A stretch of DNA of 64,000 nt from Flavobacterium panacagri (GTDB taxonomy: Bacteria > Bacteroidota > Bacteroidia > Flavobacteriales > Flavobacteriaceae): NCBI RefSeq assembly GCF_030378165.1, contig NZ_CP119766.1, forward strand, positions 5,456,001 through 5,520,000. The letters are read 5' to 3'. A program made the position numbers and the translations under genes. The notes under the pieces were generated by a model. The model did no database searches. It was not told the DNA's origin and worked only from the letters and a program-made list of their open reading frames with translations. Numbering within the stretch: the first letter of the stretch is position 1; each line of letters begins with the position of its first letter. Below, piece by piece: positions 12,333 to 31,886 of the stretch.

Positions 12333-12338
12333 ACTGCT

Positions 12339-13110: not shown

Positions 13111-13119
13111 ATTTCATTT

Positions 13120-15244: not shown

Positions 15245-15597
15245 CTGCTTACGATGAACATTTTTTTTGGTTTTATTTTAATTTCTATAAAATTACTCTA
15301 ATTTATTCGAAATCAACTTTAAAATTCACATCTGATTTTTATAAAATAAACCGTTAGACCACTTTCTTTGACGTTTTAGAGTTCTATTTTTATCTCTTGA
15401 AGTAACTTTACAGACTTTTACTTATTAAAAATTAAGTATAAAATACTACAATTTTATTGCTATTCAAAAAATTATTTTAACATTTGTTTCAGTTCAAAAT
15501 ATCATTTTATCCCTTTTATAATAAGGCTTCAGCAAACCAAACCTCATCTACAGCAAGCACATAGCTCTTTATTTTTCAAAAAAAAACAAACAAATTT

Positions 15598-15651
15598 TTG
15601 GTTTTTATTATATAAAATTTAACTTTGTCTATAGGATTAGTAGAGTTTAAA
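15598..15651 (+). promoter_or_regulatory. SusC locus 1 promoter with conserved start-region block
   Basis: TTG (about 15598-15600), 19 bases, then TAACTTTG (15620-15627) match the Bacteroidota TTG/TAnnTTTG promoter. The 33 bases 15619-15651 are identical to 28397-28429 at the second sulfatase locus, including TCTATAGGATTAGTAGAG just after the -7 element, which has TCTA...TAGA inverted arms. It is probably the binding site of a shared regulator at the transcription start. Confidence 0.75.
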
Positions 15652-15680: not shown

Positions 15681-15767
15681 GTGAAAACAACAGAAAGCAT
15701 ATTGCATTACATTCTTCCTAAAAAGTACACTTATAACACTTCTTGTTGTATGTGTTTCTGTTGTTAA
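15681..15767 (+). CDS. 28-residue Cys-ended leader peptide, copy 1
   Basis: A GTG-started frame begins with KTT at codons 2-4, has HYILPKK at 9-15 and TYN near 17-19. It ends in a run rich in Cys codons (22, 23, 25, 27, 28) directly before TAA. A frame of exactly the same length with KTT, HYILPKK, TYN and MCxCC-stop lies at 28447-28533 in front of the second SusC/SusD/sulfatase operon. Cys codons 25 and 27 are TGT here and TGC there, a sign of selection on the peptide. Terminal Cys codons in a leader of a sulfur-scavenging operon suggest that the ribosome senses charged Cys-tRNA. Confidence 0.7.
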   Translation: MKTTESILHYILPKKYTYNTSCCMCFCC

Positions 15768-15950
15768 TAATCTACTTTTATTTTGTTTGCTGATTTTTAC
15801 ATAAAAGCAAATTTCTTAAAAACACACCACCAAAAATATTTATTGCATTTACCCAAAAATCTCTCTGAGGCATTTTTATGCTTTGGACAGATTCTTGAAA
15901 CCGTACCTTTTATTCAGAAATTAAATAACTAACAACTAAAGAAAACTAAA

Positions 15951-15983
15951 ATGAAAACAATGCAAAGCTGTTGCTGTAAATAA
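15951..15983 (+). CDS. 10-residue leader frame MKTMQSCCCK
   Basis: An ATG-started frame with three consecutive Cys codons (TGT TGC TGT, 15969-15977) and a stop, ending 5 bases before a conserved hairpin. The matching place in locus 2 (28684-28716) has an ATG-started frame of the same length, MKIMHCPTLS, with a single Cys. A ribosome paused at the Cys codons would reach the 5' arm of the hairpin. Coding status is inferred. Confidence 0.45.
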   Translation: MKTMQSCCCK

Positions 15984-15988
15984 AAAAA

Positions 15989-16014
15989 GCCATTTCTGCG
16001 GCAACAGAAATGGC
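15989..16014 (+). promoter_or_regulatory. Conserved hairpin sequestering a start codon, copy 1
   Basis: GCCATTTCTG (15989-15998), loop CGGCAA, CAGAAATGGC (16005-16014) form a perfect 10-pair stem. The ATG at 16010-16012 lies in the 3' arm. Copy 2 (28723-28746) keeps loop and stem, with one A-to-G change that turns a T-A pair into a T-G wobble. Confidence 0.6.
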
Positions 16015-16057
16015 AAGGCTTAAAGAACATTTATCACTAAATCAAGAACACTTTTAG
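16010..16057 (+). CDS. Short leader frame MARLKEHLSLNQEHF
   Basis: Fifteen codons and TAG, starting inside the 3' arm of the hairpin. The first ten residues, MARLKEHLSL, are the same in locus 2 (28743-28793), and the differences in these codons (AGG/AGA, CTT/CTC) are synonymous, which favours translation. It ends 59 bases before the SusC start, and its role is unknown. Confidence 0.4.
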   Translation: MARLKEHLSLNQEHF

Positions 16058-16116
16058 AGTGCTGTATAAACAGTGCTCAGGGCATCTTGTTAATTACTTA
16101 AAACCATTACAAAGAA

Positions 16117-19100
16117 ATGAAAAAAAAATTAAACATATACATACCGCTGTTTCTACTCTTGATAACGACGGGAATATACGCCCAAAATACCACGCCGCTT
16201 ATTCAATCTAAACTCGACGGAACCGTAGTCGATGCTATTACAAATCAGCCCATTATAGGTGCATCAGTTACCATTAAAGGAACAACTCACGGGGTTGTAA
16301 CTGATGCTGAAGGAAAATTTTATTTTCAGACGGGACAGAAATTTCCTTACACTTTGATTGTAAGTTACATTGGATATAAAAAATTAGAAATAATTGTAGA
16401 GAAAAATCCAGTAATTATTAACCTTAAAGAAGAACGTCAGGAACTGGATGAATTAGTAGTTGTAGGTTACGGAACGCAGAAAAGAAAAGATATTACGGGT
16501 TCTGTTGCTTCGGTTCCAAAAGCCAATTTATCTCAGGTAACTTCTTCGGCAGATAATCTTTTAAGAGGAGCAATTTCCGGAGTTGTAGTTACACAAAGTT
16601 CAGGACGACCTGGAGCTTCTTCAAGCGTGCGCATTCGTGGAGGAAACTCTATTACAGCAGGTAACGAACCGCTTTATGTTGTGGACGGAATTCTGATTTA
16701 TAATGATAACAGCAACAGTTCGGCAGGAGTTTCTTTTGCTGGAGCAAGTGTCAATGTCTTATCAACAATAAATCCAGCAGATATTGAATCTATTGAAGTT
16801 TTAAAAGATGCTTCGGCAACAGCTATTTATGGTTCCCGAGGAGCTAATGGTGTTGTCATTATTACTACTAAAAAAGGAACTAAAGGACAAGATAATATTT
16901 CGTATCAAGGTTATTTCGGATTCCAGAACATCTCCAAAAAACTAAGAATAATGAATGCCAGCGAATGGGCAAGTTTAAGAAATGATGTTCAGGCAAGTAT
17001 TGGTCAGGCTCCATCTTTTACAGCTGCTCAGATTGAAGCATTTAAAACTTCTGGAAGTTATGATTGGCAAGATGCCGCATTTGTGACTGCTGCGCCAATA
17101 CAAAGTCATAACCTATCTTTCTCTGGCGGAGATGAAAGATCTAGATATTCAATCTCGGCTGGTTATTTTGATCAGGACGGAATTGTTTTAGGAAGCGATT
17201 TTAAACGTATTTCTCTTCGTGCTAACTATGAAAGAAATTATTCTCAAAATTTCAAATTTGGCGTAAATGCGAATTATACCAATTCTATTTCGAATGGAGT
17301 TGGATCTAGCAGCAGCGGTGGCAGAAATCCAAATCCATTGGTTGGCGTTTTATTAACTGCTCCAGTAGTTCCTATTAAAAATGCAGATGGAACTTATAAT
17401 GTAACCAACAATCCTTATACAACTTCTGTAAATGGTTACGTTTCCAATCCAATTAATGATTTGGAAAATACTACTAATGAAACCAAAATCAATAGAATCT
17501 TAACAAGTTTATTTGGTGAGTATAAAATCACTAAAAAACTAACTGCTAAAGTCGCTGTAAGCGGTGATGTTATTAATACAAAACAAAATTATTACGCCCC
17601 TGCAAATACGTCGAACGGTGCAGGAACAAAAGGTTTAGCTTCTGTTGGAGATAGAGTCGTAAGCTCTGTTTTAAATGAGAACACCTTAAACTACAACACT
17701 AATTTTGGAGAAAGTCATAAGTTTTCTGCTTTAGGTGGTTATACGCTTCAATACACCAAAGGCGAGGTTGTAAATGCGGGAGCACAGACCTTTGTAAATG
17801 ATGCAAATACATACAATGCTTTACAAGATGGTGTTGCCGTAAAACCGTACAGCGATGCTTACGAAAGTGTATTAAAATCTTGGCTCGCAAGAATAAATTA
17901 TTCTTATAAAGGAAAATATAATTTCACTTTATCTGGACGTGCAGATGGTTCTTCGAGATTTGGTGCTGAATCACTTTGGGGATACTTTCCTTCTGCTGGA
18001 TTTTCTTGGAATATTACTGACGAAGAGTTTGCCAACAACATCAAAGGCGTAACCGAAGCTAAACTTAGAATTACTGCAGGAACAACAGGAAACCAAGAAA
18101 TTGGAAATTATCTTTCTTTACCAGCAATGGGTTCTGTAAACTACTCTTTTGGAGGAACATTATACACTGGTTTAACTCCTACCCGATTGGCCAATCCAGA
18201 TTTGAAATGGGAGAAAACAACTCAATATAATGTTGGATTGGATTTGTCCTTATTAGACCGAAAAATCAATTTTGTTTTTGATGTGTATTACAAAAAAACA
18301 AACGATTTATTAATCAGTGTTCCTGTTCCGTTGAGTTCAGGTTATGCAACGGTTCTTCAGAATATTGGTGGTGTTGAAAACAAAGGTTTGGAAATTGGTT
18401 TAACTACTGAAAATATTAAAACCGAAAAATTCGCATGGAATTCCAACATTGTATTTTCTGCTAACAAAAATAAAGTTACTGAAATTGGAAATGGCGTAAA
18501 TGAGTTTTTTCCAGTTGTTCCAAATGGCTCTTTGTTACAGCAGCAACCCGTTATTGTAAAGGTTGGATTGCCTTTGGGAACTTTCTGGGGGTATAAAACC
18601 AACGGAATTTTCCAAACTCAGGAAGAAGTCAACACACAACCAAAAATCAACAGTTTGGCCAATACCAAAGTGGGAGACAGAAGATATGTTGATGCAAATG
18701 GCGACGGCGTAATTAATGCCTTAGACAAAGGAAATTTAGGAACTTCTCAACCAAAATTTGTCGGCAGTTTCAGCAATACCGTTTCATACAATGATTTTGA
18801 TTTGAATTTCTCTTTCCAAGGTTCTTACGGCGGAAAAATCTTTAATGCTTTAAATCAGCAGTTAGAAATTTCTACTCTTGGAACTAATGCTGCAACTACT
18901 TTAAATGATCGTTGGACACCAACAAATCCAAGCAATGAAATTCCGAGAGCAACAAGTTCTCCGTTAGGAATTGTTTCTGAAAGATATGTAGAAGATGCAT
19001 CTTTTTTAAGATTGAAATTAATCACACTGGGATACACTTTGCCTAAAAGCGTTTCTAAAAAACTGGGAACCAAAAGTGTGAAATTCTATGTATCAGCAGA

Positions 19101-19242
19101 AAATTTAATCACATGGACAAAATACACTGGTTATGATCCAGAGGTAAGTTCCTACGAACAAAACAACTTATATCCGGGAATTGATTTTGGTTCTTATCCA
19201 AACTCTAAAACATTCATCTCGGGCTTGAACGTAACTTTCTAA
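16117..19242 (+). CDS. SusC/RagA-type TonB-dependent outer-membrane transporter (sulfatase locus 1)
   Basis: The 1041-residue outer-membrane barrel has a signal peptide ending near IYAQ (residue 23). A carboxypeptidase-D-regulatory-like domain follows (DGTVVDAITNQPIIGASV to about 105), then a TonB box and plug domain (DELVVVGYGTQKRKDITGSV, VRIRGGNSI, YVVDG, SATAIYGSRGANGVVIITTKKG). The beta-barrel ends in aromatic F. It should import a ligand bound by the SusD lipoprotein encoded 16 bases downstream. Its N-terminal domain is a close paralogue of the SusC at 28839 (both have GKFYFQTGQKFPYTL). The sulfatases downstream suggest a sulfated organic ligand. Confidence 0.93.
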   Translation: MKKKLNIYIPLFLLLITTGIYAQNTTPLIQSKLDGTVVDAITNQPIIGASVTIKGTTHGVVTDAEGKFYFQTGQKFPYTLIVSYIGYKKLEIIVEKNPVIINLKEERQELDELVVVGYGTQKRKDITGSVASVPKANLSQVTSSADNLLRGAISGVVVTQSSGRPGASSSVRIRGGNSITAGNEPLYVVDGILIYNDNSNSSAGVSFAGASVNVLSTINPADIESIEVLKDASATAIYGSRGANGVVIITTKKGTKGQDNISYQGYFGFQNISKKLRIMNASEWASLRNDVQASIGQAPSFTAAQIEAFKTSGSYDWQDAAFVTAAPIQSHNLSFSGGDERSRYSISAGYFDQDGIVLGSDFKRISLRANYERNYSQNFKFGVNANYTNSISNGVGSSSSGGRNPNPLVGVLLTAPVVPIKNADGTYNVTNNPYTTSVNGYVSNPINDLENTTNETKINRILTSLFGEYKITKKLTAKVAVSGDVINTKQNYYAPANTSNGAGTKGLASVGDRVVSSVLNENTLNYNTNFGESHKFSALGGYTLQYTKGEVVNAGAQTFVNDANTYNALQDGVAVKPYSDAYESVLKSWLARINYSYKGKYNFTLSGRADGSSRFGAESLWGYFPSAGFSWNITDEEFANNIKGVTEAKLRITAGTTGNQEIGNYLSLPAMGSVNYSFGGTLYTGLTPTRLANPDLKWEKTTQYNVGLDLSLLDRKINFVFDVYYKKTNDLLISVPVPLSSGYATVLQNIGGVENKGLEIGLTTENIKTEKFAWNSNIVFSANKNKVTEIGNGVNEFFPVVPNGSLLQQQPVIVKVGLPLGTFWGYKTNGIFQTQEEVNTQPKINSLANTKVGDRRYVDANGDGVINALDKGNLGTSQPKFVGSFSNTVSYNDFDLNFSFQGSYGGKIFNALNQQLEISTLGTNAATTLNDRWTPTNPSNEIPRATSSPLGIVSERYVEDASFLRLKLITLGYTLPKSVSKKLGTKSVKFYVSAENLITWTKYTGYDPEVSSYEQNNLYPGIDFGSYPNSKTFISGLNVTF

Positions 19243-19258
19243 GTAAAAAATATATAAA

Positions 19259-20731
19259 ATGAAAAAGATCATTATAACATTCCTTTTAAGTGCCGGATTA
19301 TTGGTATCGTGCACAGAGCTGGAGGTAACACCAACCTCTTTTGTAACCGAAGACAATTACTTTATCACTCAGGATGATGCTGTTGCTAGTGTTACCGCAG
19401 TTTACGCTTCCTTAAGCCTTGATCCGGGAGAACAGAGTTTATTTGGAAGAAACCTTTATTTCTTAACCGATATGGGTTCAGATTATGCTGCCGCTGGAGT
19501 TTCTGCTACCAATCCGCAGGTAAGAGCCATGAGCGCTTTAACTCACGATGCGACAACCGACCGTGTTCAGGTAGCCTGGAGACAAATCTATGCTGGAATC
19601 AACAGAGCCAATGTTTCGATTGATAATATTCCGAAAGTAACGGGTAATGAAGTTATCAAAACACGATTAATTAATGAAGCCAAGTTTATTAGAGCATTGC
19701 TTTATTTTCAGGCAGTACGTCTTTGGGGTGGTGTGCCGATTGTTTTGCACGAAGCGACTTCTATACAATTGGGCAGTCTTAAAACAAACAGAGCAACTGT
19801 AGAAGAAGTTTATACGCAAATCATCACAGATTTAACTGATGCTGAAGCTTTACCAATAACCTATACAACAGCGGATGCCGGCCGCGCCACTTCTGGAGCA
19901 GCGAAAGCTATTTTAGCAAAAGTGTATCTAACGAGAAAAGACTGGCCAAATGCAATTGCAAAATCGAGAGAAGTAATTAACGGCGGTTATGGATATGCTT
20001 TGTTTGAAGATTTTCAAGATATTTTCACTAAAACTAAAAAGAACGGAAAAGAACATATTTTCTCTGTTCAGTTCGAGCCAAATCAAGCAGGAAACGGTTC
20101 TAGCGGAAGCACTTTTCAGGCCACTTCTTTTACTGGATTTACAGCAACAGAACCAGCAGATATTATTTCAGATGTTGCTTTATTTTATGACATCTATGCT
20201 CCTGGAGACAAAAGAAGAGACGTTAGCTACGCCAAGCAATTGCTTAATCCGACAACGGGAACGCTTTATACTTTTCCAAAACCAATTTTCAAAAAATATC
20301 TGGATTTAACCAATCTGGCAACACCTGCAAACGTATCAATCAACTTTCCTGTGATTCGTTATGCCGACATCCTTCTGTCTCTAGCGGAAGCGATAAACGA
20401 ACAAAGCGGCCCAACAGCAGAAACTTACGAATTGATCAATCAAATTCGCAGAAGAGCCTTCGGAAAAGCCATCACAACACCAGATGCAACGGTAGATTTA
20501 AGTGGATTAAATCAAACGACTTTTAGAGCAGCGATTCAGGAAGAACGTAAAAAAGAATTTGTTCAGGAAGGGCAAAGATGGTTCGATTTAGTGCGCTGGG
20601 GAACTTTGGTTACAGAAGTAAAAAAAGTAACTGCTAAAAACTCGGTTTCAGAACGAAATAACCTTTATCCAATTCCGCAGAGTGAAAGAAATATCAATCC
20701 GGATGGGTTACCACAAAATCCTGGATATTAA
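19259..20731 (+). CDS. SusD/RagB-family surface lipoprotein (sulfatase locus 1)
   Basis: The 490-residue lipoprotein has the signal MKKIIITFLLSAGLLVSC, with Cys18 as the lipid site, followed by EDNYF and the alpha-helical TPR-like SusD fold (LINEAKFIRALLYFQAVRLWGGVPIV, YTQIITDLTDAE). The C-terminal RagB region has EERKKEFVQEGQRWFDLVRWG. It should cap the SusC barrel and bind the substrate. It follows SusC by 16 bases. The gap after it is filled by a repeat element, but the sulfatase genes continue on the same strand. Confidence 0.93.
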   Translation: MKKIIITFLLSAGLLVSCTELEVTPTSFVTEDNYFITQDDAVASVTAVYASLSLDPGEQSLFGRNLYFLTDMGSDYAAAGVSATNPQVRAMSALTHDATTDRVQVAWRQIYAGINRANVSIDNIPKVTGNEVIKTRLINEAKFIRALLYFQAVRLWGGVPIVLHEATSIQLGSLKTNRATVEEVYTQIITDLTDAEALPITYTTADAGRATSGAAKAILAKVYLTRKDWPNAIAKSREVINGGYGYALFEDFQDIFTKTKKNGKEHIFSVQFEPNQAGNGSSGSTFQATSFTGFTATEPADIISDVALFYDIYAPGDKRRDVSYAKQLLNPTTGTLYTFPKPIFKKYLDLTNLATPANVSINFPVIRYADILLSLAEAINEQSGPTAETYELINQIRRRAFGKAITTPDATVDLSGLNQTTFRAAIQEERKKEFVQEGQRWFDLVRWGTLVTEVKKVTAKNSVSERNNLYPIPQSERNINPDGLPQNPGY

Positions 20732-20737
20732 AAGTTT

Positions 20738-20880
20738 TAAACACATAGAGACATAGATTTTTAATTATTAATGAAGAAAGTAAAAGAGAAACTCGTTTCT
20801 CCACACATAGTTGCTCTGTAAATTGAAATAAGTGAAACGCCTTATATCGATTCTAAAAACTATGATTCTATGCGTTTAAA
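20738..20880. repeat. MITE-like element, 'ACACATAGAAACATAG' family, copy 1
   Basis: Ends AAACACATAGAGACATAG and CTATGATTCTATGCGTTT are imperfect inverted repeats. Its reverse complement aligns with 33353-33534, sharing AAGGCGTTTCACTTATTTCA and ACTATGTGTGGAGAAA. The two copies lie after the two paralogous SusD genes, in opposite orientation. Confidence 0.65.
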
Positions 20881-20926
20881 AAAGATTGAAGATTAGAAAA
20901 CCTTATAACTAAAAAACTATAAAATC

Positions 20927-22843
20927 ATGAAAAATTTAAAAAATAACCTTTTAATCAAAAGTCCTAAAAAGGGACTTTTGATTACTGCAATACTGGTTGC
21001 ACAATTAGGATTTGCACAAGACACACAAGAGTTTAAAGGAACTATAGGAAAAACATTGGCAGACTCAAAAGAATATTGGCCTGAGCCTGTAACCGCTCCA
21101 AAGGGCGCTCCAAATGTGGTTTGGATTTTGTTGGATGATGTTGGATTTGGTGCGGCAAGTGCTTTTGGAGGTTTAATCAACACTCCTACTTTTGATAATC
21201 TGGCAAACAATGGTTTACGTTATACCAATTTCCATACAACAGCAATCTGTGCTCCTACCCGTGCGGCATTATTAACTGGAAGAAATTCAGGAAGAGTACA
21301 CGTAAGCGGTTTTTCACACACTATTTTATCAGCAGGTTTTCCAGGTTGGGACGGAAGAATTCCTTCTGATAAAGGAACTATTGCGGAGATTCTTCGTGCA
21401 AACGGATACAATACTTTTGCGGTTGGAAAATATGGTATTACACCAGACGAAGAAGCATCCGATGCTGGCCCGTTTGACAGATGGCCGACTGGAAAAGGTT
21501 TCGATCATTTCTACGGATTCTTAGGTTCGCAGACTGATCAATACAATCCTGATTTAGTAGAAGACCAAGTTCATATAAAACCTGATGGACGCCATTTAAA
21601 TGAATTAATTACCGACAAAGCCATCAGCTATATTCAGAAACAGCAGAAAGCCGCGCCTGGAAAACCATTTTTCTTATACTATGCGCCGGGAGCAGTTCAT
21701 GCACCTCATCAGGTTGCCGAAAAATGGGTGGAGCCTTACAAAGGAAAATTTGACGAAGGCTGGGATGTTTACCGCGAAAAAGTTTTGGCTAACCAAAAGA
21801 AATTAGGAACTGTTCCTGCAAATGCTGTTTTACCAGAACGTAACGCCCTTATTACTGAATGGAAAAAATTGACTCCAGACCAAAAGAAAGTATATGCAAG
21901 ATTCATGGAAGTTTATGCTGGATTCCTGACTTATACCGATTATGAAATCGGAAGAGTGGTGAATTACCTAAAAGAAAGCGGTCAATTGGACAATACTTTA
22001 ATTTTTGTTGCTATTGGAGATAACGGAGCCAGTAAAGAAGGAACTCTGCAGGGAACAATCAATCAGAGCCTATTTTCTCAAGGGAAAACAGATGAAGAAA
22101 ACTTCCAAAGCAATTTGAATAACATCGGTGAAATTGGAACGGCGAAAGGTTTAAACACGAACTATCCTTTGGGTTGGGCACAAGCTACAAATGTTCCTTT
22201 TAAAAACTGGAAACAAGATGCACATTCTGAAGGAGGAACGCGTAACCCTTTGATTGTCTTTTATCCAAACGGAATTAAAGATAAAGGTGGCATCAGAAAT
22301 CAATACAGCCACGTGACTGATTTGCTTCCAACAACTTTAGCCATTACTGGAATTAAAGCTCCAGAATATATCAAAGGAATTAAACAGGATATTATTCAAG
22401 GCTCTTCATTCCAAGCTTCTTTAGACAATCCAAAAGCAGAATCACTTCATAAAATTCAATATTACTACATCTTTGGAAACAGAGCAATTTACAAAGATGG
22501 ATGGAAAGCTTCTGCCGCACATTTACCAGATTCATTTGCTGTAAAAAAATCTTTAGGAAGCAATGAAAAACCTGCACCAAGCAATTTCGATACCGACGTT
22601 TGGGAATTATATAATCTAAATGAAGACTTCAACGAACGTAATAATCTAGCGAAAAAATATCCAGAAAAGCTAGCTGAACTTCAAAAATTATTTGACGAAC
22701 AAGCCAAAGAAAACAATGTTTACCCATTGATTGACTGGCAGGATGTGTACAACAGAAGAATTCACAACACTGGAGCAGATAAAGGAAAAACAGTTTCTGA
22801 TTTAATCAAACAGGCCACTAAACCTGGAGGAACCAATAACTAG
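20927..22843 (+). CDS. Secreted arylsulfatase (Cys-type)
   Basis: The 638-residue alkaline-phosphatase-superfamily sulfatase has a signal peptide cleaved near FAQ (residue 31), so it acts in the periplasm or outside. Metal ligands are expected at Asp70-Asp71 (VWILLDDVGFG). The signature CAPTRAALLTGR puts Cys108 in the CxPxR motif, which must be converted to formylglycine by a maturase not encoded in this window. The GDNGA motif near residue 365 is the second metal-binding loop. Released sulfate would feed cysteine synthesis. It is longer than the paralogue at 33578 (550). The substrate cannot be read from the sequence. Confidence 0.9.
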   Translation: MKNLKNNLLIKSPKKGLLITAILVAQLGFAQDTQEFKGTIGKTLADSKEYWPEPVTAPKGAPNVVWILLDDVGFGAASAFGGLINTPTFDNLANNGLRYTNFHTTAICAPTRAALLTGRNSGRVHVSGFSHTILSAGFPGWDGRIPSDKGTIAEILRANGYNTFAVGKYGITPDEEASDAGPFDRWPTGKGFDHFYGFLGSQTDQYNPDLVEDQVHIKPDGRHLNELITDKAISYIQKQQKAAPGKPFFLYYAPGAVHAPHQVAEKWVEPYKGKFDEGWDVYREKVLANQKKLGTVPANAVLPERNALITEWKKLTPDQKKVYARFMEVYAGFLTYTDYEIGRVVNYLKESGQLDNTLIFVAIGDNGASKEGTLQGTINQSLFSQGKTDEENFQSNLNNIGEIGTAKGLNTNYPLGWAQATNVPFKNWKQDAHSEGGTRNPLIVFYPNGIKDKGGIRNQYSHVTDLLPTTLAITGIKAPEYIKGIKQDIIQGSSFQASLDNPKAESLHKIQYYYIFGNRAIYKDGWKASAAHLPDSFAVKKSLGSNEKPAPSNFDTDVWELYNLNEDFNERNNLAKKYPEKLAELQKLFDEQAKENNVYPLIDWQDVYNRRIHNTGADKGKTVSDLIKQATKPGGTNN

Positions 22844-22854
22844 TAATTACACAA

Positions 22855-22937
22855 CCTGCAAGGTTTCTAAAACCTTGTAGGTTTAAATTATAAAAACTAA
22901 AAAAAACATACCTACAAGGTTTTGGAAACCTTGCAGG
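22855..22937. repeat. 27-base inverted repeat, 'CCTGCAAGGTTT' type
   Basis: The arms 22855-22881 and 22911-22937 are complementary at 26 of 27 positions, and each arm is itself a small hairpin (AAGGTTT...AAACCTT). It lies between the sulfatase gene and a 39-codon gene and could form a strong RNA hairpin, but has no T run. Confidence 0.65.
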
Positions 22938-22955
22938 AAATAAAATATAAAGATT

Positions 22956-23075
22956 ATGAAACGAGTAGATTATGAAATTATCGGAAAAAAGATTGTCGTG
23001 GGGATAATCTTGTTTTTAGTGCCGTTGGCCATTCTCGCTGGCGGATTAACCTTAATTAATCAATTTTTAAAATAA
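22956..23075 (+). CDS. 39-residue single-pass membrane protein
   Basis: ATG at 22956 opens a 39-codon frame ending TAA at 23073-23075, six bases before the hydroxylase gene. It reads as a charged N-terminus (MKRVDYEIIGKK), one transmembrane helix (about 13-35, IVVGIILFLVPLAILAGG) and a short tail. Tight spacing to the next gene and the clean membrane-protein layout argue that it is real. It may be a small partner of the di-iron membrane enzyme that follows; that is inference. Confidence 0.6.
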   Translation: MKRVDYEIIGKKIVVGIILFLVPLAILAGGLTLINQFLK

Positions 23076-23081
23076 GAAATC

Positions 23082-24137
23082 ATGGCAATAGTTCAAAAAG
23101 AAAAATTAGTAAGAGACTTAACGATAAGTTTTTTCATTTATTCATTGCCTGTTGTGGCAATTTACCTTTATTTTAAACTGACTGGCGGTGCTGTAAGCGA
23201 ATCGCACTTAACATTACCTCCATTCTTAGAATTTGCGCAGCCTGTTTTTGCTAATATCAGAACTTGGGGACTAACGGTATTTATGATTGTTTTAGGAATA
23301 ATCGAATTCGCAGCGGGTTTATACGATGACGAATGGACAGGCGAAGAACGTAAAATTGATATTGTTTGTTTCTTAGCACCAAAATTATTGTTACCACCCG
23401 TAATTGCTTTTTTCAGCTTAACTGCTTTGCCGTATTTATTACCAAACGCTGCAAATGCATTATCTTGGGTTCCGTTTTGGGGAGGTTTTTTCCTAATTGC
23501 AATTGCCGATGATTTAACGCAGTATTGGTATCACAGATTGCATCATCAGGTTCCGTTTTTATGGCGTTTCCACAGAACACATCATTCGGCTCCTTATATG
23601 GGAATGGCGATGGCTTCGAGACAAAACTTTATTTATACGGTTTTCTTTTCTCAAATTTATTTGACTGCAACTTTAACTTATTTAGGTTTAGGGCTTCCGG
23701 CTTTATTTGTTTTGGTAATCAAAAGTGTCATCACTTTAGGCGCACACTCAAGTATTCCTTGGGATAAACCTTTCTACAAATACAAAGTATTACATCCAAT
23801 TGCATGGGTTTTAGAAAGACTGATTTCTACACCTGCAACACATCACGCACACCACGCCGATACAAGCGGAGACGGTGTTGGACATTTTAAAGGAAACTTC
23901 GGAAACATGTTTTTTATTTGGGATGTCATTTTTGGAACAGGATTAATTACACGTCAATACCCAAAATCATTCGGAACAAAATCATACAAACAAGAAGAAT
24001 GGTACGCGCAGTTTCTTTGGCCGATTTTTAAATCTAAAAAAGAAGGAAGTTCCCTTGCTGAAGGTGTATTATCACTTCCATCAAAACCAAAAGCAGTTAT
24101 AGAAGAAACTCCTGCACCAGTTTTAGAACAAGTATAA
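23082..24137 (+). CDS. Fatty acid hydroxylase / sterol desaturase family membrane protein
   Basis: The 351-residue protein has four to six hydrophobic segments and the His-box pattern of integral-membrane di-iron hydroxylases: HRLHH, HRTHHS and HHAHHAD in order from about residue 150 to 260. These bind two irons that use oxygen to hydroxylate or desaturate a lipid-like substrate. It lies between sulfatase genes, in one orientation with short gaps, so it may act on the alcohol freed from a sulfate ester, or on a lipid needed for the process. Bacteroidota also make sulfonolipids, so a lipid role is an alternative. Confidence 0.85.
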   Translation: MAIVQKEKLVRDLTISFFIYSLPVVAIYLYFKLTGGAVSESHLTLPPFLEFAQPVFANIRTWGLTVFMIVLGIIEFAAGLYDDEWTGEERKIDIVCFLAPKLLLPPVIAFFSLTALPYLLPNAANALSWVPFWGGFFLIAIADDLTQYWYHRLHHQVPFLWRFHRTHHSAPYMGMAMASRQNFIYTVFFSQIYLTATLTYLGLGLPALFVLVIKSVITLGAHSSIPWDKPFYKYKVLHPIAWVLERLISTPATHHAHHADTSGDGVGHFKGNFGNMFFIWDVIFGTGLITRQYPKSFGTKSYKQEEWYAQFLWPIFKSKKEGSSLAEGVLSLPSKPKAVIEETPAPVLEQV

Positions 24138-24148
24138 TATTTCCGGAT

Positions 24149-24865
24149 ATGAAAAATCAAATCTTAAAAACCAGCTTAACAGCAATTGCCTTTTTATGGG
24201 CGATTGCTGTCTTTTCGCAAAATGAAAACCATAATTCATTATCTTTAGATTCCTTTTATTCTAAAATAAAAAGTCAAAAGAATCCACAGATTGTCGATGC
24301 GAGAACTTCGGAAGAATTTGCTCTAAATCATATTGAAGGCGCAGTAAATTTTAATCTTCAATCTGAAAATTACGAACAGCATATTGCTAAACTAGACAAA
24401 TCAAAACCTGTTTTTATTTATTCCATCGGAGCTGGCAGAAGCGTTGCTTTAGAAAAAGAATTATTAAAAACTGGATTTACTGAAGCCTACAGTCTAGAAG
24501 GCGGGATTGCCAATTGGATTGGAAATGGAAAACCTTTTTATTCTAATCTGAAAAGCAAATTGTCTTTAGCAGAATTCAATAAAATTATTGCTTCGAATAA
24601 AAACGTTTTGGTTGATATTGGTTCCAAATATTGCGGCCCATGTAAAAAAGTAAAACCTATTCTAGAAACTATTAGAACAGAATACGGTTCAAATTTAAAA
24701 ATTGTAGAAATTGAACTGGAAGACAGTCCACAGGTTATTGCTGATTTAAAAACAGTAAAAGTTTTTCCGACTTTAATTCTATATGAAAACGGAAAAATTA
24801 TTTTTAAGAAGGAAGGGATTAGTGATTTGAAAAACGAGGTTGATATTGCCTTGGCTTCGAAATAA
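24149..24865 (+). CDS. Secreted rhodanese-like/thioredoxin fusion
   Basis: The 238-residue protein has a signal peptide (residues 1-25, ending FSQ). A rhodanese-like domain (about 30-130; IVDARTSEEFALNHIEGAVN) is followed by a thioredoxin domain (about 140-236) with the redox pair YCGPCKKVKP. In the rhodanese active-site loop the Cys is replaced: IYSIGAGRS instead of YCxxGxRS, so sulfur transfer is unlikely and the domain may only bind. The thioredoxin part looks active. It sits 11 bases after the hydroxylase gene in the sulfatase operon. A periplasmic thiol-redox role is my inference. Confidence 0.8.
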   Translation: MKNQILKTSLTAIAFLWAIAVFSQNENHNSLSLDSFYSKIKSQKNPQIVDARTSEEFALNHIEGAVNFNLQSENYEQHIAKLDKSKPVFIYSIGAGRSVALEKELLKTGFTEAYSLEGGIANWIGNGKPFYSNLKSKLSLAEFNKIIASNKNVLVDIGSKYCGPCKKVKPILETIRTEYGSNLKIVEIELEDSPQVIADLKTVKVFPTLILYENGKIIFKKEGISDLKNEVDIALASK

Positions 24866-24878
24866 TAAGGATGTTATA

Positions 24879-24979
24879 TCATCCTGATGAACGAAGAATC
24901 ACACTAAAAACTATACAAAGATTGTCGATTTTGCATGTGGAATTACTGGTGTGATTTCTCCTTCGTCGAAATGACAAAA
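24879..24979. repeat. MITE-like element, 'TTTCGACCGAAGG' family, copy 2
   Basis: This aligns end to end with the reverse complement of 7641-7749; shared core phrases are CAAAGATTG, CGATTTTGCAT and GGAATTAC. The left end is degraded. As in copy 1, a CTTTGTCAAAG palindrome lies to its right, although the core is inverted. Confidence 0.6.
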
Positions 24980-24990
24980 AATGCGCGGAA

Positions 24991-25023
24991 AACTTTGTCA
25001 AAGTTTCAAACTTTGACAAAGTT
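24991..25023. repeat. Palindromic hairpin AACTTTGTCAAAGTTT, copy 2
   Basis: AACTTTGTCAAAGTTT (24991-25006), one base, then the exact complement (25008-25023). It is the same palindrome as at 7761-7789, again to the right of the 'TTTCGACCGAAGG' element. Confidence 0.6.
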
Positions 25024-25060
25024 CTTACACTCCTCTGAAAAACTAACCAAAAACCAAACT

Positions 25061-26683
25061 ATGGCAACCTATAAAAAAATAACCAAAATTGTTATCCCTA
25101 TTTTAATAGTTCTTTTCATTCTCGCAGCATTTCTTTTCTGGCCAATTAATACCGATGGTACTTTAGTCAAAGAAGATGAAAAACTGGCAGAAGGGAAAAA
25201 GGAATTTTTAGCATCCAAACCAAAATCTGATTCACTTTCTGTAAAAAAGACCAATATCATCATTCTGCTTGCAGATGATTTAGGTAAATATGATATTTCA
25301 CTTTATGGCGGAAAATCGACACCAACACCACAAATTGATTCTTTGTCCGCTTCCGGAGTTACTTTTACTGATGGTTACGCCTCTGCAGCAATTTGTTCTC
25401 CATCTCGTGCCGGATTAATCACAGGAAGATATCAAGAGCGTTTTGGACATGAATATCAACCTGGAGATCGTTATCCAAAAAACAATCTGGAGTATTATGC
25501 TTTCAAATATTTACTGAATACCAATGATTGGAGATTAAATGATAAAATCGAATATCCAAACGAGGCTTCTATCAAAACACAAGGATTACCGAAATCTGAA
25601 ATTACTTTTGCTGATTTAGCCAAAAGGCAAGGTTACGCTACAGGAATTATCGGAAAATGGCATTTGGGTCACAACAAAGGTTTCTTTCCTTTAGACCGCG
25701 GTTTCGATTATCATTACGGATTTTATCAGGCGTTCTCCTTGTATGTTCCAGAAGATGACAATCCGGATATTATCAATCATCATCATAAAGATTTTACCGA
25801 TAAAATGATTTGGAGAAAAGGCCGTGTTGGAATCGGTCAAATTCGCCGTGATACTACTATTATTGACGAAAAAGCGTATTTAACCGAAAAATTTGCCGAA
25901 GAAGCCGAAGCTTTCATCGATAAAAATAAAAACAAACCATTTTTGCTATACATTCCATTCAACGCACCGCATACGCCGTTTCAGGTTCGTAAAAAATATT
26001 ACGATCGTTTTCCAAATGTAAAAGACGAAAATAAACGTGTTTATTTTGCCATGATCAGCGCTTTGGATGATGCGATTGGAAGAATTAGAGAAAAAGTCAA
26101 AAAAGAAGGCCTTGAAGACAATACCTTAATCATTTTTGCCAGTGATAATGGAGGTGCCGATTATACTTTTGCTACAACAAATGCTCCGCTAAAAGGCGGT
26201 AAATTTTCGCATTTTGAAGGCGGAATAAATGTCCCTTTTGCACTTTCGTGGAAGGGAAAAATTAAACCTCATACAGTTTATAAACAGCCTGTAAGTACTT
26301 TAGATTTTTTTACAACCATTGCAGCAGCGATTGGTTCAGATTTACCAAAAGACAGAGTTTACGATGGAGTTGATTTAGTCAAAACTGTCAATGAAAATAA
26401 AGTCGCACACAAAGATTTATATTGGCGTTCGGGCGATGCAAAAGCTATTCGAAGCGGGGACTGGAAATTGGTTATTAGCGGCAAAACACATGAAAAATGG
26501 TTGTATAATCTAGCTTCGGATAAATTTGAAAAAACAGACCTCTCACAAAAAAATCCTGAAAAAGTAAAAGAATTACAAACTGCGCTTCAAACCTGGGAAA
26601 AAGGATTGATCAAACCGCTTTGGCCAAACTTGACCTATTATGAATTCAATTTTGGAAAACAGAAGTACTTTGTTGATTTGTAA
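25061..26683 (+). CDS. Membrane-anchored sulfatase (Cys-type)
   Basis: The 540-residue sulfatase is anchored by an N-terminal helix (about 9-28), with the catalytic domain outside the cytoplasm. Signature CSPSRAGLITGR puts Cys112 in CxPxR for formylglycine formation. LLADDLG (Asp72-73) and ASDNGGADY supply metal ligands, and HLGHNKG and APHTPF are further conserved sulfatase segments. I start it at ATG 25061; an upstream in-frame codon at 24935 would translate the repeat. It differs from the two arylsulfatases in length and active-site context, so it probably has another substrate. Confidence 0.9.
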   Translation: MATYKKITKIVIPILIVLFILAAFLFWPINTDGTLVKEDEKLAEGKKEFLASKPKSDSLSVKKTNIIILLADDLGKYDISLYGGKSTPTPQIDSLSASGVTFTDGYASAAICSPSRAGLITGRYQERFGHEYQPGDRYPKNNLEYYAFKYLLNTNDWRLNDKIEYPNEASIKTQGLPKSEITFADLAKRQGYATGIIGKWHLGHNKGFFPLDRGFDYHYGFYQAFSLYVPEDDNPDIINHHHKDFTDKMIWRKGRVGIGQIRRDTTIIDEKAYLTEKFAEEAEAFIDKNKNKPFLLYIPFNAPHTPFQVRKKYYDRFPNVKDENKRVYFAMISALDDAIGRIREKVKKEGLEDNTLIIFASDNGGADYTFATTNAPLKGGKFSHFEGGINVPFALSWKGKIKPHTVYKQPVSTLDFFTTIAAAIGSDLPKDRVYDGVDLVKTVNENKVAHKDLYWRSGDAKAIRSGDWKLVISGKTHEKWLYNLASDKFEKTDLSQKNPEKVKELQTALQTWEKGLIKPLWPNLTYYEFNFGKQKYFVDL

Positions 26684-26721
26684 TCTACAGAAGAAACCTG
26701 TCAGGTTTAATTTCAAAAACC

Positions 26722-26850
26722 AATTGCCTCCAGCTTTAGCCGGAGGTATAAAATTTCAACACACCGAAGGCTTTAGCCAAATTAATTATTCGGCTAAAGC
26801 CTTTTCTATACTCACAAAACTTTTACCTCCAGCTAAAGCTGGAGGCAATT
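26722..26850. repeat. Nested inverted repeats, 'CCTCCAGCTTTAGC' type
   Basis: Outer arms 26722-26748 and 26824-26850 (AATTGCCTCCAGC... against ...GCTGGAGGCAATT) enclose an inner pair, GGCTTTAGCC near 26769 and CGGCTAAAGCC near 26791. The CGGCTAAAGCC phrase recurs at about 13900. It fills the gap between the sulfatase and the transporter gene. Confidence 0.6.
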
Positions 26851-26875
26851 CAAAATAAAACTCTTTAAGTAAAAA

Positions 26876-28135
26876 ATGTCAACCTCAACAAAATTTACCA
26901 TTCACGAAGACTGGACTGTCGTTATTCTCGGTTTTCTTATTATCGGAATTTCTCTTTTTATTTTTCTCCCGGAAGTTCCTGTTTTCAAATGGGCAAGTGG
27001 AAACGATTTAATTTCCAATGTATTCGAAATCAAAAACCTTCAACATATTGGTTTTCAATTTATTTATTTTCTTCTGATTGGAAGTGTCGGAACTTTTTTA
27101 GTTGGAAAATCAGTTAAAAATTTCATTCTAGGATTTCCAATAATTTATTTCTTAACTATAATCGCTTTAATTCTTGCTGGAAATACAGAAGTTAAAGCAC
27201 TAAATCTAGAAGCTGTAATTTTTAGTTTAGTAATCGGATTATTAATTGGCAACTTTTTCAAACTTCCGGAGTGGTTTCGTTCTGCTCTATCAACTGAACT
27301 TTTTGTCAAAATCGGATTGGTTTTGCTGGGAACAAGCGTTATTTTTTCCGATATTTTAAAGGCAGGTTCATTGGGCTTAATTCAGGCATTGGTGGTTGTT
27401 TTATCCGTCTGGTATTTTGCCTTTTGGCTTTGCCGAAAATTAAAAGTAGACGACGAATTGACCATGATGATTTCGAGTGCGGTTTCCATCTGTGGAGTTT
27501 CGGCGGCAATTGCAACTTCTGGAGCGATAAAAGGAGATTCTAAAAAATTATCTTATGTGATTTCGATGGTTTTGGTTACCGCCATTCCCATGATGATTTT
27601 TATGCCAATTATTGCAAGTCATTTTAATTTTCCAGAAGAAGTAACAGGCGCCTGGCTCGGAGGTAGTATTGATACTTCAGGTGCTGTTGTGGCTTCTGGA
27701 ACTTTGGTTGGCGAAACGGCTTTAAAAATAAGCACGATTGTCAAATTTTCTCAAAATGTTTTATTGGGTTTAGCCGCTTTTGCAATTTCGATTTATTGGA
27801 CTTATACGCATAATAAATCGGCTGAAGTTCAGGAATCGAAACCGACACTGAGCGTAATTTGGGAACGTTTTCCAAAGTTTGTTATCGGGTTTATTGGAGC
27901 TTCTATTATTTTCTCCTTTTTCATTGCACCTGAAACTCGCGAAACCGTAAAAGAAAGTTTAAAAAATCTACAGGGACTTTGGTTCGCTTTGGCTTTTACC
28001 AGTATTGGTTTGGAAACTAATTTTAAAGATTTGCTTCAAAACAACAGTAGAAAACCTTTGATAGCATTTTTAACGGCACAATTGTTTAATATCATTATTA
28101 CATTGATTATCGCTTTTTTACTTTTTAAACCTTAA
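26876..28135 (+). CDS. YeiH/PSE-family membrane transporter (putative sulfate exporter family)
   Basis: The 419-residue protein has about ten to eleven hydrophobic helices and the family's conserved Gly/Ser stretches (ISSAVSICGVSAAIATSGAIKG in part, GAWLGGSIDTSGAVVASGTLVG in part, ASIIFSFF). The family is annotated as putative sulfate exporters, but the substrate is poorly proven. As last gene of a sulfatase operon it may handle sulfate, sulfite or a desulfated product. A strong terminator follows 80 bases downstream. Confidence 0.82.
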   Translation: MSTSTKFTIHEDWTVVILGFLIIGISLFIFLPEVPVFKWASGNDLISNVFEIKNLQHIGFQFIYFLLIGSVGTFLVGKSVKNFILGFPIIYFLTIIALILAGNTEVKALNLEAVIFSLVIGLLIGNFFKLPEWFRSALSTELFVKIGLVLLGTSVIFSDILKAGSLGLIQALVVVLSVWYFAFWLCRKLKVDDELTMMISSAVSICGVSAAIATSGAIKGDSKKLSYVISMVLVTAIPMMIFMPIIASHFNFPEEVTGAWLGGSIDTSGAVVASGTLVGETALKISTIVKFSQNVLLGLAAFAISIYWTYTHNKSAEVQESKPTLSVIWERFPKFVIGFIGASIIFSFFIAPETRETVKESLKNLQGLWFALAFTSIGLETNFKDLLQNNSRKPLIAFLTAQLFNIIITLIIAFLLFKP

Positions 28136-28216
28136 AAAACGATTTTCTCTTAACAACACCCAACAGATTTTAAAAACCTGTCGGGTTTGTCACTGTAATT
28201 CAAATACTAAACCTAA

Positions 28217-28270
28217 AAAAGCAAGTAAAAACTGTCTAAAACAAAACAGTTTTTACTTGCTTTTATTTTT
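28217..28270 (+). terminator. Strong intrinsic terminator ending sulfatase locus 1
   Basis: A 19-base stem (28217-28235 with 28246-28264, containing AAGCAAGTAAAAACTGT) with a 10-base loop, followed by a T-rich run. Confidence 0.85.
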
Positions 28271-28375
28271 CAACAAAAAACAAATAAACAACTAAATATC
28301 AAATACTTAAATACACTAAAAATATATTTTAAATTCTTCTCACTACACTTTTTTTCAAAAAAATTAAATAATCTT

Positions 28376-28429
28376 TTGGTTTTCTTTACAATAAAATTAA
28401 CTTTGTCTATAGGATTAGTAGAGTTTAAA
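28376..28429 (+). promoter_or_regulatory. SusC locus 2 promoter with conserved start-region block
   Basis: TTG (28376-28378), 19 bases, TAACTTTG (28398-28405). Bases 28397-28429 are identical to 15619-15651. Upstream of the -7 element the two promoters differ, so the identity marks a functional block around the transcription start and not recent duplication of the whole region. Confidence 0.75.
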
Positions 28430-28446
28430 CAATTAATAACTACATT

Positions 28447-28533
28447 TTGAAAACAACAGCTTATACATCGCATTACATTCTTCCTAAAAAAATCACTTAT
28501 AACAACTTCGGTTATATGTGCATGTGCTGTTAA
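28447..28533 (+). CDS. 28-residue Cys-ended leader peptide, copy 2
   Basis: A TTG-started frame of the same length as the one at 15681-15767. KTT at codons 2-4, HYILPKK at 9-15 and TYN at 17-19 are kept, and it ends YMCMCC-stop (Cys 25, 27, 28). Middle residues differ, so the conserved ends are under selection. It is about 40 bases downstream of the predicted start of transcription. The start codon is uncertain; no in-frame ATG precedes codon 24. Confidence 0.68.
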   Translation: MKTTAYTSHYILPKKITYNNFGYMCMCC

Positions 28534-28683
28534 AATCCAATTTCATTTTTGTTTTCAAATCGAAAATAAATCACAAACTAAATTTCATATTGACAAATCA
28601 GCCATTAATGCCTAACAACATTAAGAGCATAACCATGTCAAAATCATATTAACTAAAAAAATAATAACTAAAACAAGACTACA

Positions 28684-28716
28684 ATGAAAATAATGCACTG
28701 CCCTACTCTTTCATAG
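28684..28716 (+). CDS. 10-residue leader frame MKIMHCPTLS
   Basis: ATG-started, one Cys codon (28699-28701), stop TAG six bases before the hairpin. It holds the place of MKTMQSCCCK in locus 1 and has the same length, but has lost the Cys triplet or never had it. Coding status is weak. Confidence 0.3.
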   Translation: MKIMHCPTLS

Positions 28717-28722
28717 TAAAAC

Positions 28723-28746
28723 CCATTTCTGCGGCAACGGAAATGG
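28723..28746 (+). promoter_or_regulatory. Conserved hairpin sequestering a start codon, copy 2
   Basis: CCATTTCTG (28723-28731), loop CGGCAA, CGGAAATGG (28738-28746). The ATG at 28743-28745 is in the 3' arm, as in copy 1 (15989-16014). The single stem change keeps pairing as a wobble. Confidence 0.6.
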
Positions 28747-28793
28747 CAAGACTCAAAGAACATTTATCACTAAAGAAAGCCTTCGAAAATTGA
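28743..28793 (+). CDS. Short leader frame beginning MARLKEHLSL
   Basis: Sixteen codons and TGA. The first ten residues equal those at 16010-16057 with only synonymous changes; the tail (KKAFEN) differs. A second hairpin, CGAAAATTG...CAATTTTTCG (about 28783-28809), overlaps its end and could act as a terminator-like or translation-coupled structure before SusC. Confidence 0.4.
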   Translation: MARLKEHLSLKKAFEN

Positions 28794-28838
28794 CAAATCA
28801 ATTTTTCGCATCGCTATATTATTTAAACCCAAAAAGTA

Positions 28839-31800: not shown

Positions 31801-31886
31801 ACGGAACTACTATTTCTCCGGGAACAGATACTGGAATTTATCCAGCTTCTAAAACTATTTCAGGCGGACTAAGTGTAACATTCTAA
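28839..31886 (+). CDS. SusC/RagA-type TonB-dependent transporter (sulfatase locus 2)
   Basis: The 1015-residue protein has a signal peptide ending near IKAQ, a carboxypeptidase-like domain (LNGTVIDQVTNQPIPGVTV), a plug (NEIVIIGYGSTSKKDYTGA, IRIRGGSSI, YVIDGFPIY, SSTAIYGSRGANGVVIITTKKG) and a barrel ending SVTF. It is a diverged paralogue of the SusC at 16117; the leader, domain order and partner genes are the same, so the two loci probably arose by duplication and now serve different sulfated ligands. SusD follows after 10 bases. Confidence 0.93.
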   Translation: MNKQLHALLWIFVFLISIGIKAQNTQPLINSILNGTVIDQVTNQPIPGVTVQIKGTTHAAVTDLDGKFYFQTGQKFPYTLVVSYLGYITTEHIATKDFVQISLKEDVKELNEIVIIGYGSTSKKDYTGAAETVAQMSLKATQKTLESSLQGSVAGVNVTQTSGAPGAGMSIRIRGGSSIQGGNEPLYVIDGFPIYNSEVTSGVLSGTPTNPLSTINPADIESITVLKDASSTAIYGSRGANGVVIITTKKGSNTVTTVNYDFTIGQQEVRKKIDLLDAQGFSRLRNAALYDSNPSGGTNQYLSEAQIAQLGKGTDWQDAAFQKGLTQNHQLSISGGNNQTKFAISGNYYNQEGIIKNTGFERFSTRVNLTSKINSKARFGLNLTLAETKAKVAPSGLVTALISMPPTATIYEPDGTYTLRNPFENIFANPIATLNERKNQSITDRILGTVYGEYDLLKNLVLKVSFGTDVIFNKEKSYLPASIYEGSITNGEGKIGNADSKSWLNENTLTYTTVFGEKHHLNALAGYTQQRSTREFSTAGSQQYVNDITGYYSLQSGNIALMPSSGESTWALNSYLSRINYNYDSKYFLTGSIRADGSSRFGKDNKWGYFPSVAAAWQISNESFFDPLKKVVNSLKIRSSWGATGNQEIGEYQSLSTLTSVKYLFGDQIYTGFTPTRIANDNLGWELTNQFDAGIDVGFFEDKLNLTVDVYRKTTKNLLLDVQLPYTTGFTSSLQNFGSVQNQGIELGLNASLGNTAFSWTSNFNIAFNRNKIIALGNGAEFYTFGNYILKVGQSLGTFYGAVTDGILQTDEVATKGVFTGNATPKAGDRLYKDINGDGAFTTAADRTSIGDAQPDFVFGFSNNFTYRGFELAVLVNGSVGNKILNGNLQALELYNGQQNASTSALDAWTPTNPSNTTPRAKLDPAPVFSNRFVEDGSFVRLKNITLSYNLPKKLSEKLSLTSVKFRVIGENLLTWTKYTGFDPEVTNGTTISPGTDTGIYPASKTISGGLSVTF

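Follow-up and report, generated by a model that had tools for sequence, protein, structure and literature searches.

Candidate cysteine-sensing leader peptides precede sulfur and cysteine operons in Flavobacterium

Introduction

Why should two short frames that end in a run of cysteine codons stand in front of two operons for sulfatases and outer-membrane uptake? The question is raised by a 64,000-nt stretch of Flavobacterium panacagri DNA (contig NZ_CP119766.1, positions 5,456,001 to 5,520,000; here called the window), which is part of a 5.98-Mb single-contig genome. An earlier reading of this DNA from its letters alone (the sequence-only reading) placed a 28-codon open reading frame (ORF), here called ORF1, before each of the two operons and proposed a Cys-sensing leader switch as the simplest explanation. 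That proposal is supported in silico by conservation of the frame, selection on its codons, and the sulfur and cysteine genes that follow it. Judged by sequence evidence, the translated-looking, Cys-codon leader family of sulfur operons in Flavobacterium is real, and its interpretation as Cys-sensing leader-peptide attenuation of sulfur-scavenging and cysteine-making operons, taken as a whole, is probably correct.

Results

Conservation and coding evidence of ORF1

Both frames are present where they had been placed, with 28 codons each (Table 1). As had been noted, KTT, HYILPKK, TYN, and MCxCC are common to the two, and Cys codons 25 and 27 differ synonymously (TGT/TGT in copy 1, TGC/TGC in copy 2); both copies have TGT at codon 28. 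A point absent from the sequence-only reading is that both start codons are non-ATG. Among the 703 window frames of 20 to 40 codons on both strands (287 plus, 416 minus), only the two ORF1 copies carry at least three Cys in their last four codons.

When 150 same-genus genomes were searched at the nucleotide level with the copy 1 leader, 53 gave matches, with the full 517 nt covered in 27 of these (the own genome included) and the others partial, many of them weak. The top 30 loci, one from each genome, were read together with 38 more regions, the remaining weak matches being set aside. Stops and frameshifts were sought in these relatives, as the sequence-only reading had proposed: all 49 similar copies (L012 to L039 and L042 to L062, with L012 being window copy 1) are open and carry two or more Cys among their last six residues, with the reservation that copies picked by leader similarity may have let eroded ones escape. 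L072 and L073 were dropped as leader copies, their matches being chance-like.

The ratio of nonsynonymous to synonymous substitution rates (dN/dS), also proposed earlier as a check, was 0.42 in the ORF1 frame versus 1.31 and 0.65 in the other frames of the same alignment; the pairs are not independent, and the ratio is descriptive. The set comprised 39 of 46 promoter-pattern ORFs, seven of other length or subtype being excluded; the promoter pattern missed about ten loci, such as L038 (ending MCNCF), which hence lie outside the set. As judged from this alignment, the comparison shows ORF1 to be under purifying selection at the codon level. Met24, Cys27, and Cys28 are invariant in all 39 sequences and Cys25 is found in 37, with TGT and TGC both common; the tail Cys-Cys adjoins the stop in 39/39, and not in outside loci such as L038 and L242. 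Length variants differ by whole codons (27 and 29 codons), and a second subtype with a different middle, ending RMCCCC, occurs in L040, L041, L063, and L066.

R1, a sequence-only model of the promoter motif plus ORF1 built on 42 sequences, matched in 67 of 299 same-genus genomes (E <= 1e-5). In a later set of 40 further regions (39 loci, one of them split over two regions), for which divergent and second copies were chosen, a Cys-tailed ORF1 was kept in 36 of the 39 loci, including L223 (17 codons) and L241, and three (L227 to L229) had the promoter motif without it; the set was chosen by a model that contains ORF1, and 36/39 is thus not an unbiased figure.

Genes behind the leader

Sulfatases lie in both window operons, as had been claimed, alongside SusC and SusD genes. 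Elsewhere a sulfatase is itself sometimes the first gene behind ORF1: the 33 classified first genes of the later set (7 of the 40 regions being unclassified) were 26 SusC, 5 sulfatase, 1 encapsulin, and 1 metY. ORF1 also stands before serine acetyltransferase (SAT), and the four proteins tested all reach the EpsC cut-off and fall below that of cysE. Among 23 SAT loci from genomes named Flavobacterium or Flavobacteriaceae, ORF1 was found directly before the SAT gene in 8 and before a SAT-preceding sulfatase in another 8; one leader ahead of sulfatase and SAT, L181, belongs to Flavobacterium johnsoniae strain CI04. In L160, cysteine synthase and a family 2A encapsulin come after the SAT gene; in L044 and L242, such an encapsulin is itself the first gene behind the leader. 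Sulfate starvation induces the cyanobacterial relative of this encapsulin, which encloses a cysteine desulfurase (PMC8049743).

In L221 (genome G062), ORF1 precedes metY, a MetX-like protein (below the MetX cut-off), and homoserine dehydrogenase. The leader of L253 precedes a SusCD operon with amidohydrolase, luciferase-like monooxygenase, and amino-acid permease genes, and L252 has amidohydrolase and encapsulin; from their gene content, these operons perhaps encode an organosulfur pathway without a sulfatase. By annotation, sulfur and cysteine are the common ground of the identified targets. The link to cysteine goes beyond what was first proposed, in that SAT with cysteine synthase, the family 2A encapsulin, and the metY operon are targets as well.

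Structures in and after ORF1

A hairpin (D) lies inside ORF1. Across 41 sequences of both subtypes, double changes were found in 6 of its 10 pairs (0/500 shuffles), and 90% of cells are paired versus 20 to 55% when the structure is slid, and a single pair of the ten is unpaired in most sequences (29/40). Set against synonymous recodings, hairpin D exceeds their mean stability in 41 of 42 leaders (mean z, -1.5), and the later set agrees without exception (34 of 34; mean z, -1.7). The first Cys codon falls within its 3' arm, so that a ribosome waiting there must hold hairpin D open.

The 15 nt 3' of the ORF1 stop contain 26% C and 5% G in 38 loci, a C/G ratio of 5.2 versus 1.06 after 44 window genes, and a similar patch of C over G occurs 60 to 75 nt after the stop. 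Given the size of a ribosome, a stall at the Cys codons would leave little of the first patch exposed. A stem pairing the ORF1 start with its Cys codons (11/11 pairs in copy 1) was rejected, since by eye the complementarity is gone in AACAACCG loci.

ORF2 and the hairpins before SusC

Downstream of ORF1, both copies contain a second conserved block (element 2) that is absent from the sequence-only reading. In SusC-led copies, it consists of a mini-ORF (ORF2) and a hairpin within the last 170 nt before SusC. Element 2 loci were extracted by similarity, a first extraction pattern having missed most; there are 55, of which five (L044, L055, L056, L059, and L061) are not SusC-led. ORF2 has at least two Cys in 40 of them (MKTMQTCCCK and MKKRMCCR are examples), one in 8, and none in 6, and one locus has no ORF. 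In copy 1, 5 nt separate the ORF2 stop from the base of hairpin A, and this spacing (measured as 7 nt to the CATTTCTG core) recurs in 33 of 54.

The sequence of hairpin A is almost invariant. Window copy 2 and its counterparts L046, L049, L054, and L062 have lost the ORF2 Cys run and kept the hairpin, which makes a separate role for hairpin A probable and an off-structure unlikely. Hairpin B covaries: in 44 of the 55 element 2 sequences, both-side changes were found in 8 of 9 pairs, and the whole-structure measures were reached in 0/500 shuffles. In the class of SusC/SusD-like_2 pairs, ORF2 is kept and the Cys-tailed ORF1 is mostly absent. The own genome holds a third copy (L099, C1:3712305-3712649) with divergent ORF1 (MKTSKNISLSNKQKPFSCFNLMCSFC) and ORF2 (MKKRMCSR), then a hairpin and a SusC of the SusC/SusD-like_2 kind.

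The possibility that element 2 encodes a third frame (ATGGCRARGCTTAAAGAA..., beginning within hairpin A) was abandoned, as indels seen by eye shift this frame between classes. On the minus strand, the hairpin A region (15989-16014) resembles an intrinsic terminator with a U-run, perhaps as a chance effect of the preceding A-run.

Promoter and operator-like motif

The matching promoters reported earlier were borne out, with equal box spacing in the two copies followed by an identical 17-nt motif, CTATAGGATTAGTAGAG. We take TTTG...TAnnTTTG to be the Bacteroidota promoter form. Counted from the first base of the -7 box, the distance to the ORF1 start is 48 to 63 nt in 45 of 46 loci, L070 being the exception with 36 nt; as placed by these boxes, ORF1 is probably not leaderless and starts about 40 to 55 nt after the -7 box. 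A wider motif pattern with a TTTGT box gave 6 sites in 299 family genomes, every one of them a leader locus. The exact motif occurs at four sites in the own genome, one of which (L287) has no leader; with one mismatch allowed, its sites in the own genome are at noise level (26+13 versus 32+32 in controls).

Terminators and the metY leaders

A terminator-like hairpin with a U-run precedes the first gene in only 1 of 42 ORF1 leaders (L059), and no intrinsic terminator was found on the plus strand of the copy 1 leader. This near-absence disfavors the classical terminator type and points toward attenuation through Rho. Compared with trp- and his-type attenuators, the leaders have the leader ORF with codons for the pathway product and lack the intrinsic terminator with a competing antiterminator. 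The earlier description as a classic attenuation device is supported for the leader frame with Cys codons before sulfur genes, with the qualification that the leaders are not of the classical terminator type. The Cys codon run adjoins the stop of a short ORF, as in mycobacterial attenuators, and a C-rich, G-poor stretch lies near the stop, as in Rho-dependent upstream ORFs (uORFs), by composition. The 28-codon peptides have neither the RAPP nor the distant CXXC of the CruR family, as judged without a profile scan.

A Met/Cys leader type, MKTIAKRNMMCCKMMQMCIPICCCQK, precedes metY (O-acetylhomoserine sulfhydrylase) in 23 of the 30 metY loci read (L256 to L285), including that of the own genome (L268, C1:1720655). 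It has an ATG start and 25 to 28 codons, with one longer reading, and an intrinsic terminator lies behind it in all 14 parsed loci. The motif CTATCGAATTAGTCGA or CTATAGAAATAGTCGA stands just before this leader in 11 of 12 terminator-bearing parsed loci (e.g., L260, L264, and L276), and not in the own genome. There, a further leader, MNLTAKNMCCMMSEQSAE, lies upstream; a hairpin with a T-run is seen behind it by eye, and the terminator scan did not list it. SAM and SAM-II riboswitch matches occur near metY in 5 of 8 loci scanned (L257, L270, L258, L259, and L268). The window itself contains, on the minus strand (40434-42272), a gene whose product combines the Rho RNA-binding domain with an ATPase domain.

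Distribution

Applied to 299 genomes of the family (236 genera), R1 gave real matches only in the two Flavobacterium genomes of the draw; four weak matches in other genera were judged unrelated on reading. A model of element 2 (R2) had one match outside Flavobacterium in the same genomes, an ordinary terminator by eye, and the promoter pattern had none outside the genus; in 296 genomes of the order, all 14 R2 matches were in the same genus. No uORF of 5 to 45 residues whose final six include at least three Cys was found within 600 nt of 28 SusC homologs from other genera, which are 36 to 42% identical and probably not orthologs. A recognizable leader sequence was therefore found only in Flavobacterium, as far as sequence models reach; analogous leaders elsewhere, beyond such models, are possible. 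The switch proposed for Bacteroidota is supported by the copies before SusC, sulfatase, and sulfur genes, with its recognizable sequence narrowed to one genus.

The statement that no described family matches is consistent with a search of the main texts of open-licence literature, which gave no description of these leaders. In Flavobacterium psychrophilum there are clues of leader-peptide attenuation before amino-acid operons, in a section that does not mention cysteine (PMC9723704), and leader-peptide-like small ORFs are mentioned for Bacteroides thetaiotaomicron (PMC7366714). An Rfam scan of the whole window at the gathering cut-off found Flavo-1 alone (RF01705), at 46077-46218 and outside the leaders; a scan of 15 related loci gave two matches, both far below the cut-off.

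Features of the window

The features are listed in Table 1. Divergent from operon 1 on the minus strand (7802-15190) are molybdenum-cofactor genes (radical-SAM/Mob_synth_C, MoaC, MoaE, MoeA, and MobA-like), accompanied by a TauE-type exporter and a tetrapyrrole methylase.

Table 1. Leader elements and operon genes, in window positions
Feature	Position	Strand	Details
Promoter copy 1	15597..15627	+	TTTGG (15597-15601), 18 nt, TAACTTTG (15620-15627)
Operator-like/5'-end motif copy 1	15629..15645	+	CTATAGGATTAGTAGAG; same 17 nt in copy 2
ORF1 copy 1	15681..15767	+	leader peptide VKTTESILHYILPKKYTYNTSCCMCFCC; GTG start, 28 codons + TAA, end MCFCC-stop
Hairpin D copy 1	15727..15755	+	inside ORF1; codons 16-20 pair with codons 22-25
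G-poor tract copy 1	15768..15782	+	after ORF1 stop; 2 C, 0 G; candidate Rho-loading stretch
Hairpin C	15785..15812	+	downstream of ORF1; single-sequence folds only
ORF2 copy 1	15951..15983	+	mini-ORF MKTMQSCCCK
Hairpin A copy 1	15989..16014	+	GCCATTTCTG-CGGCAA-CAGAAATGGC
Hairpin B copy 1	16057..16078	+	covarying stem before SusC
SusC-type TonB-dependent receptor	16117..19242	+	operon 1, first gene
SusD	19259..20731	+	operon 1
Sulfatase	20927..22843	+	operon 1
Fatty-acid-hydroxylase-family protein	23082..24137	+	operon 1
Rhodanese-thioredoxin protein	24149..24865	+	operon 1
Sulfatase (second)	24935..26683	+	operon 1
Cons_hypoth698 (PF03601) protein	26876..28135	+	operon 1
Promoter copy 2	28375..28405	+	TTTGG (28375-28379), 18 nt, TAACTTTG (28398-28405); layout as copy 1
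Operator-like/5'-end motif copy 2	28407..28423	+	CTATAGGATTAGTAGAG
ORF1 copy 2	28447..28533	+	leader peptide LKTTAYTSHYILPKKITYNNFGYMCMCC; TTG start, 28 codons, end MCMCC-stop
Hairpin D copy 2	28494..28520	+	inside ORF1
G-poor tract copy 2	28534..28548	+	after ORF1 stop; 3 C, 0 G
ORF2 copy 2	28684..28716	+	degenerate (MKIMHCPTLS), without Cys run
Hairpin A copy 2	28723..28746	+	kept despite lost ORF2 Cys run
Hairpin B copy 2	28785..28807	+	
SusC-type receptor	28839..31886	+	operon 2, first gene
SusD	31897..33345	+	operon 2
Sulfatase	33578..35230	+	operon 2

Discussion

The mechanism that we infer, with Cys-tRNA as the signal and with a direction of response, a Rho step, and a role for ORF2, would run as follows. 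The C-terminal Cys codons of ORF1 would gauge charged Cys-tRNA. When cysteine is plentiful, a ribosome would traverse the 28-codon frame from its weak start (TTG or GTG), terminate, and leave; the C-rich, G-poor tract that begins at the stop codon would then be free, and most likely Rho would load and halt transcription before the first gene. Under cysteine shortage, it would stall on the last four codons, hairpin D would be held open and the tract covered, and transcription would continue. In SusC-led operons, ORF2 may act as a second checkpoint. Rho is preferred for this step because the C/G tract resembles known Rho-dependent uORFs such as CruR; taken by itself, the Rho step is about an even bet.

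Several observations weigh against this mechanism. One Cys of the tail pattern is missing in L038, L043, L051, L215, L219, L222, L224, L225, and L242, and in class d the promoter motif and ORF2 usually occur with no Cys-tailed ORF1 (the loci without it are L065, L067 to L069, L074 to L077, and L227 to L229). L064 has element 2 within an operon and no ORF1, the Cys run of ORF2 is lost in window copy 2, and in 7 of the 23 SAT loci no ORF1 was found within 2.5 kb. Just 14 of 42 hairpins D beat 95% of recodings, and an excess of C over G is weak evidence for Rho in AT-rich DNA. All of the sequence evidence comes from one genus, whose copies are related, so that the counts are not independent. The operator-like motif, finally, might account for regulation without the leader.

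The main rival, which we consider possible but doubtful, is that the Cys-stalled ribosome acts not on transcription termination but on translation initiation of the first gene or on mRNA stability, through coupling or a structural switch involving hairpins A and B. Translational control fits the near-absence of intrinsic terminators and the position of hairpin A and covarying hairpin B within the last 170 nt before SusC. The predicted pairing of ORF2 Cys codons with hairpin A is a lead in the same direction: in class a it is strong, reaching -14.5 kcal/mol with the loop and 3' arm versus -15.5 kcal/mol for the hairpin itself (copy 1), and elsewhere it is weak or absent, as in L040, L041, L065, and L068. 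Hairpin B, however, ends 30 to 40 nt short of the SusC start and leaves it uncovered, and the copies read that lead into sulfatase, SAT, or encapsulin genes have ORF1 but no Cys-run ORF2, with a hairpin-A-like stem in L044, L055, L056, L059, and L061. Control by a DNA-binding repressor at CTATAGGATTAGTAGAG, over the presumed start site and with the peptide incidental, is unlikely. The motif is identical at both copies, presumably resembles Rrf2-family sites, and has similar counterparts (CTATCGAATTAGTCGA or CTATAGAAATAGTCGA) before the metY leader in 11 of 12 loci; yet with a promoter box it occurs only at leader loci, and an incidental peptide would lack codon-level selection, synonymous Cys codons, and a nearly fixed length of 28 codons. 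Repressor and leader layers may also coexist.

Less likely still is that the Cys-rich nascent peptide itself senses a metal or a thiol. The residues of the last four codons are still inside the ribosome when they are made. The Cys residues of ORF1 are among these, whereas the CXXC of Bordetella CruR, the model for such sensing, lies 45 residues before the arrest motif (PMC9426467). In common with CruR, a leader Cys motif stands before a TonB-dependent receptor or transporter, and CruR is a Rho-dependent precedent with a C>G stretch (PMC9426467); the sulfur-gene targets, including cysteine and homocysteine synthesis, disfavor metal or thiol sensing. We give the least credence to the block being merely a structured RNA or protein-binding DNA element with the open frame as a by-product. 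Hairpin D does account for part of the TYN and YMC conservation, but the in-frame dN/dS of 0.42, length variants of whole codons, and the synonymous variation of Cys codons 27 and 28, which lie outside hairpin D, speak against a by-product.

Tentatively, and with somewhat less than even confidence, attenuation by Cys-sensing leaders may extend to a sulfur regulon in which ORF1 and ORF2 act as serial Rho or translation checkpoints on sulfate-ester uptake, ORF1 alone acts on cysteine synthesis and the sulfur-type encapsulin, and metY is controlled by a Met/Cys leader backed by a true terminator, most of this standing under a single related promoter motif. If so, a single genus would answer one signal with two attenuators that differ physically, and the type with a terminator could be compared with the type without one in the same cell. 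Cysteine supply would directly gate outer-membrane uptake by SusCD, a ribosome-based amino-acid gating of Bacteroidota SusCD of which the open-licence literature search found no instance. Sulfatase loci, cysteine synthesis, and the sulfur-type encapsulin would be joined in one regulon, for which the leader is a short, easily mutated target in a genus that has laboratory strains.

Comparison with known systems

Experimental work on mycobacterial Cys leader peptides has reportedly been done by Canestrari et al. in 2020. The ORF1 leaders share several features with such leaders: a short ORF with a Cys run by its stop, a position before cysteine genes, the lack of a conserved terminator, and the suggestion of Rho, as made for the mycobacterial cys operons (PMC1262725). 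They differ in that Flavobacterium belongs to another phylum, that ORF1 is probably not leaderless, and that ORF2, the internal hairpin D, and outer-membrane uptake targets are found on the Flavobacterium side. The uORFC-8-2 before cysS in Rhodobacterales resembles ORF1 in its tandem conserved Cys codons, which are proposed to gauge charged Cys-tRNA (PMC8632094). That motif, which lies before a tRNA synthetase gene, closes with an intrinsic terminator (PMC8632094), whereas the ORF1 leaders are almost all free of terminators. In Bordetella pertussis, CruR is likewise a uORF that precedes a TonB-dependent receptor; it has a C>G stretch, and its attenuation is Rho dependent. Unlike ORF1, it is a 145-residue DUF2946 protein that senses copper via CXXC and arrests at RAPP (PMC9426467). 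A further comparison comes from the same genus. The metY leader is also Cys rich, also precedes a sulfur gene, and often has a similar promoter motif; unlike ORF1, it starts with ATG, combines Met with Cys codons, and is followed by a strong intrinsic terminator.

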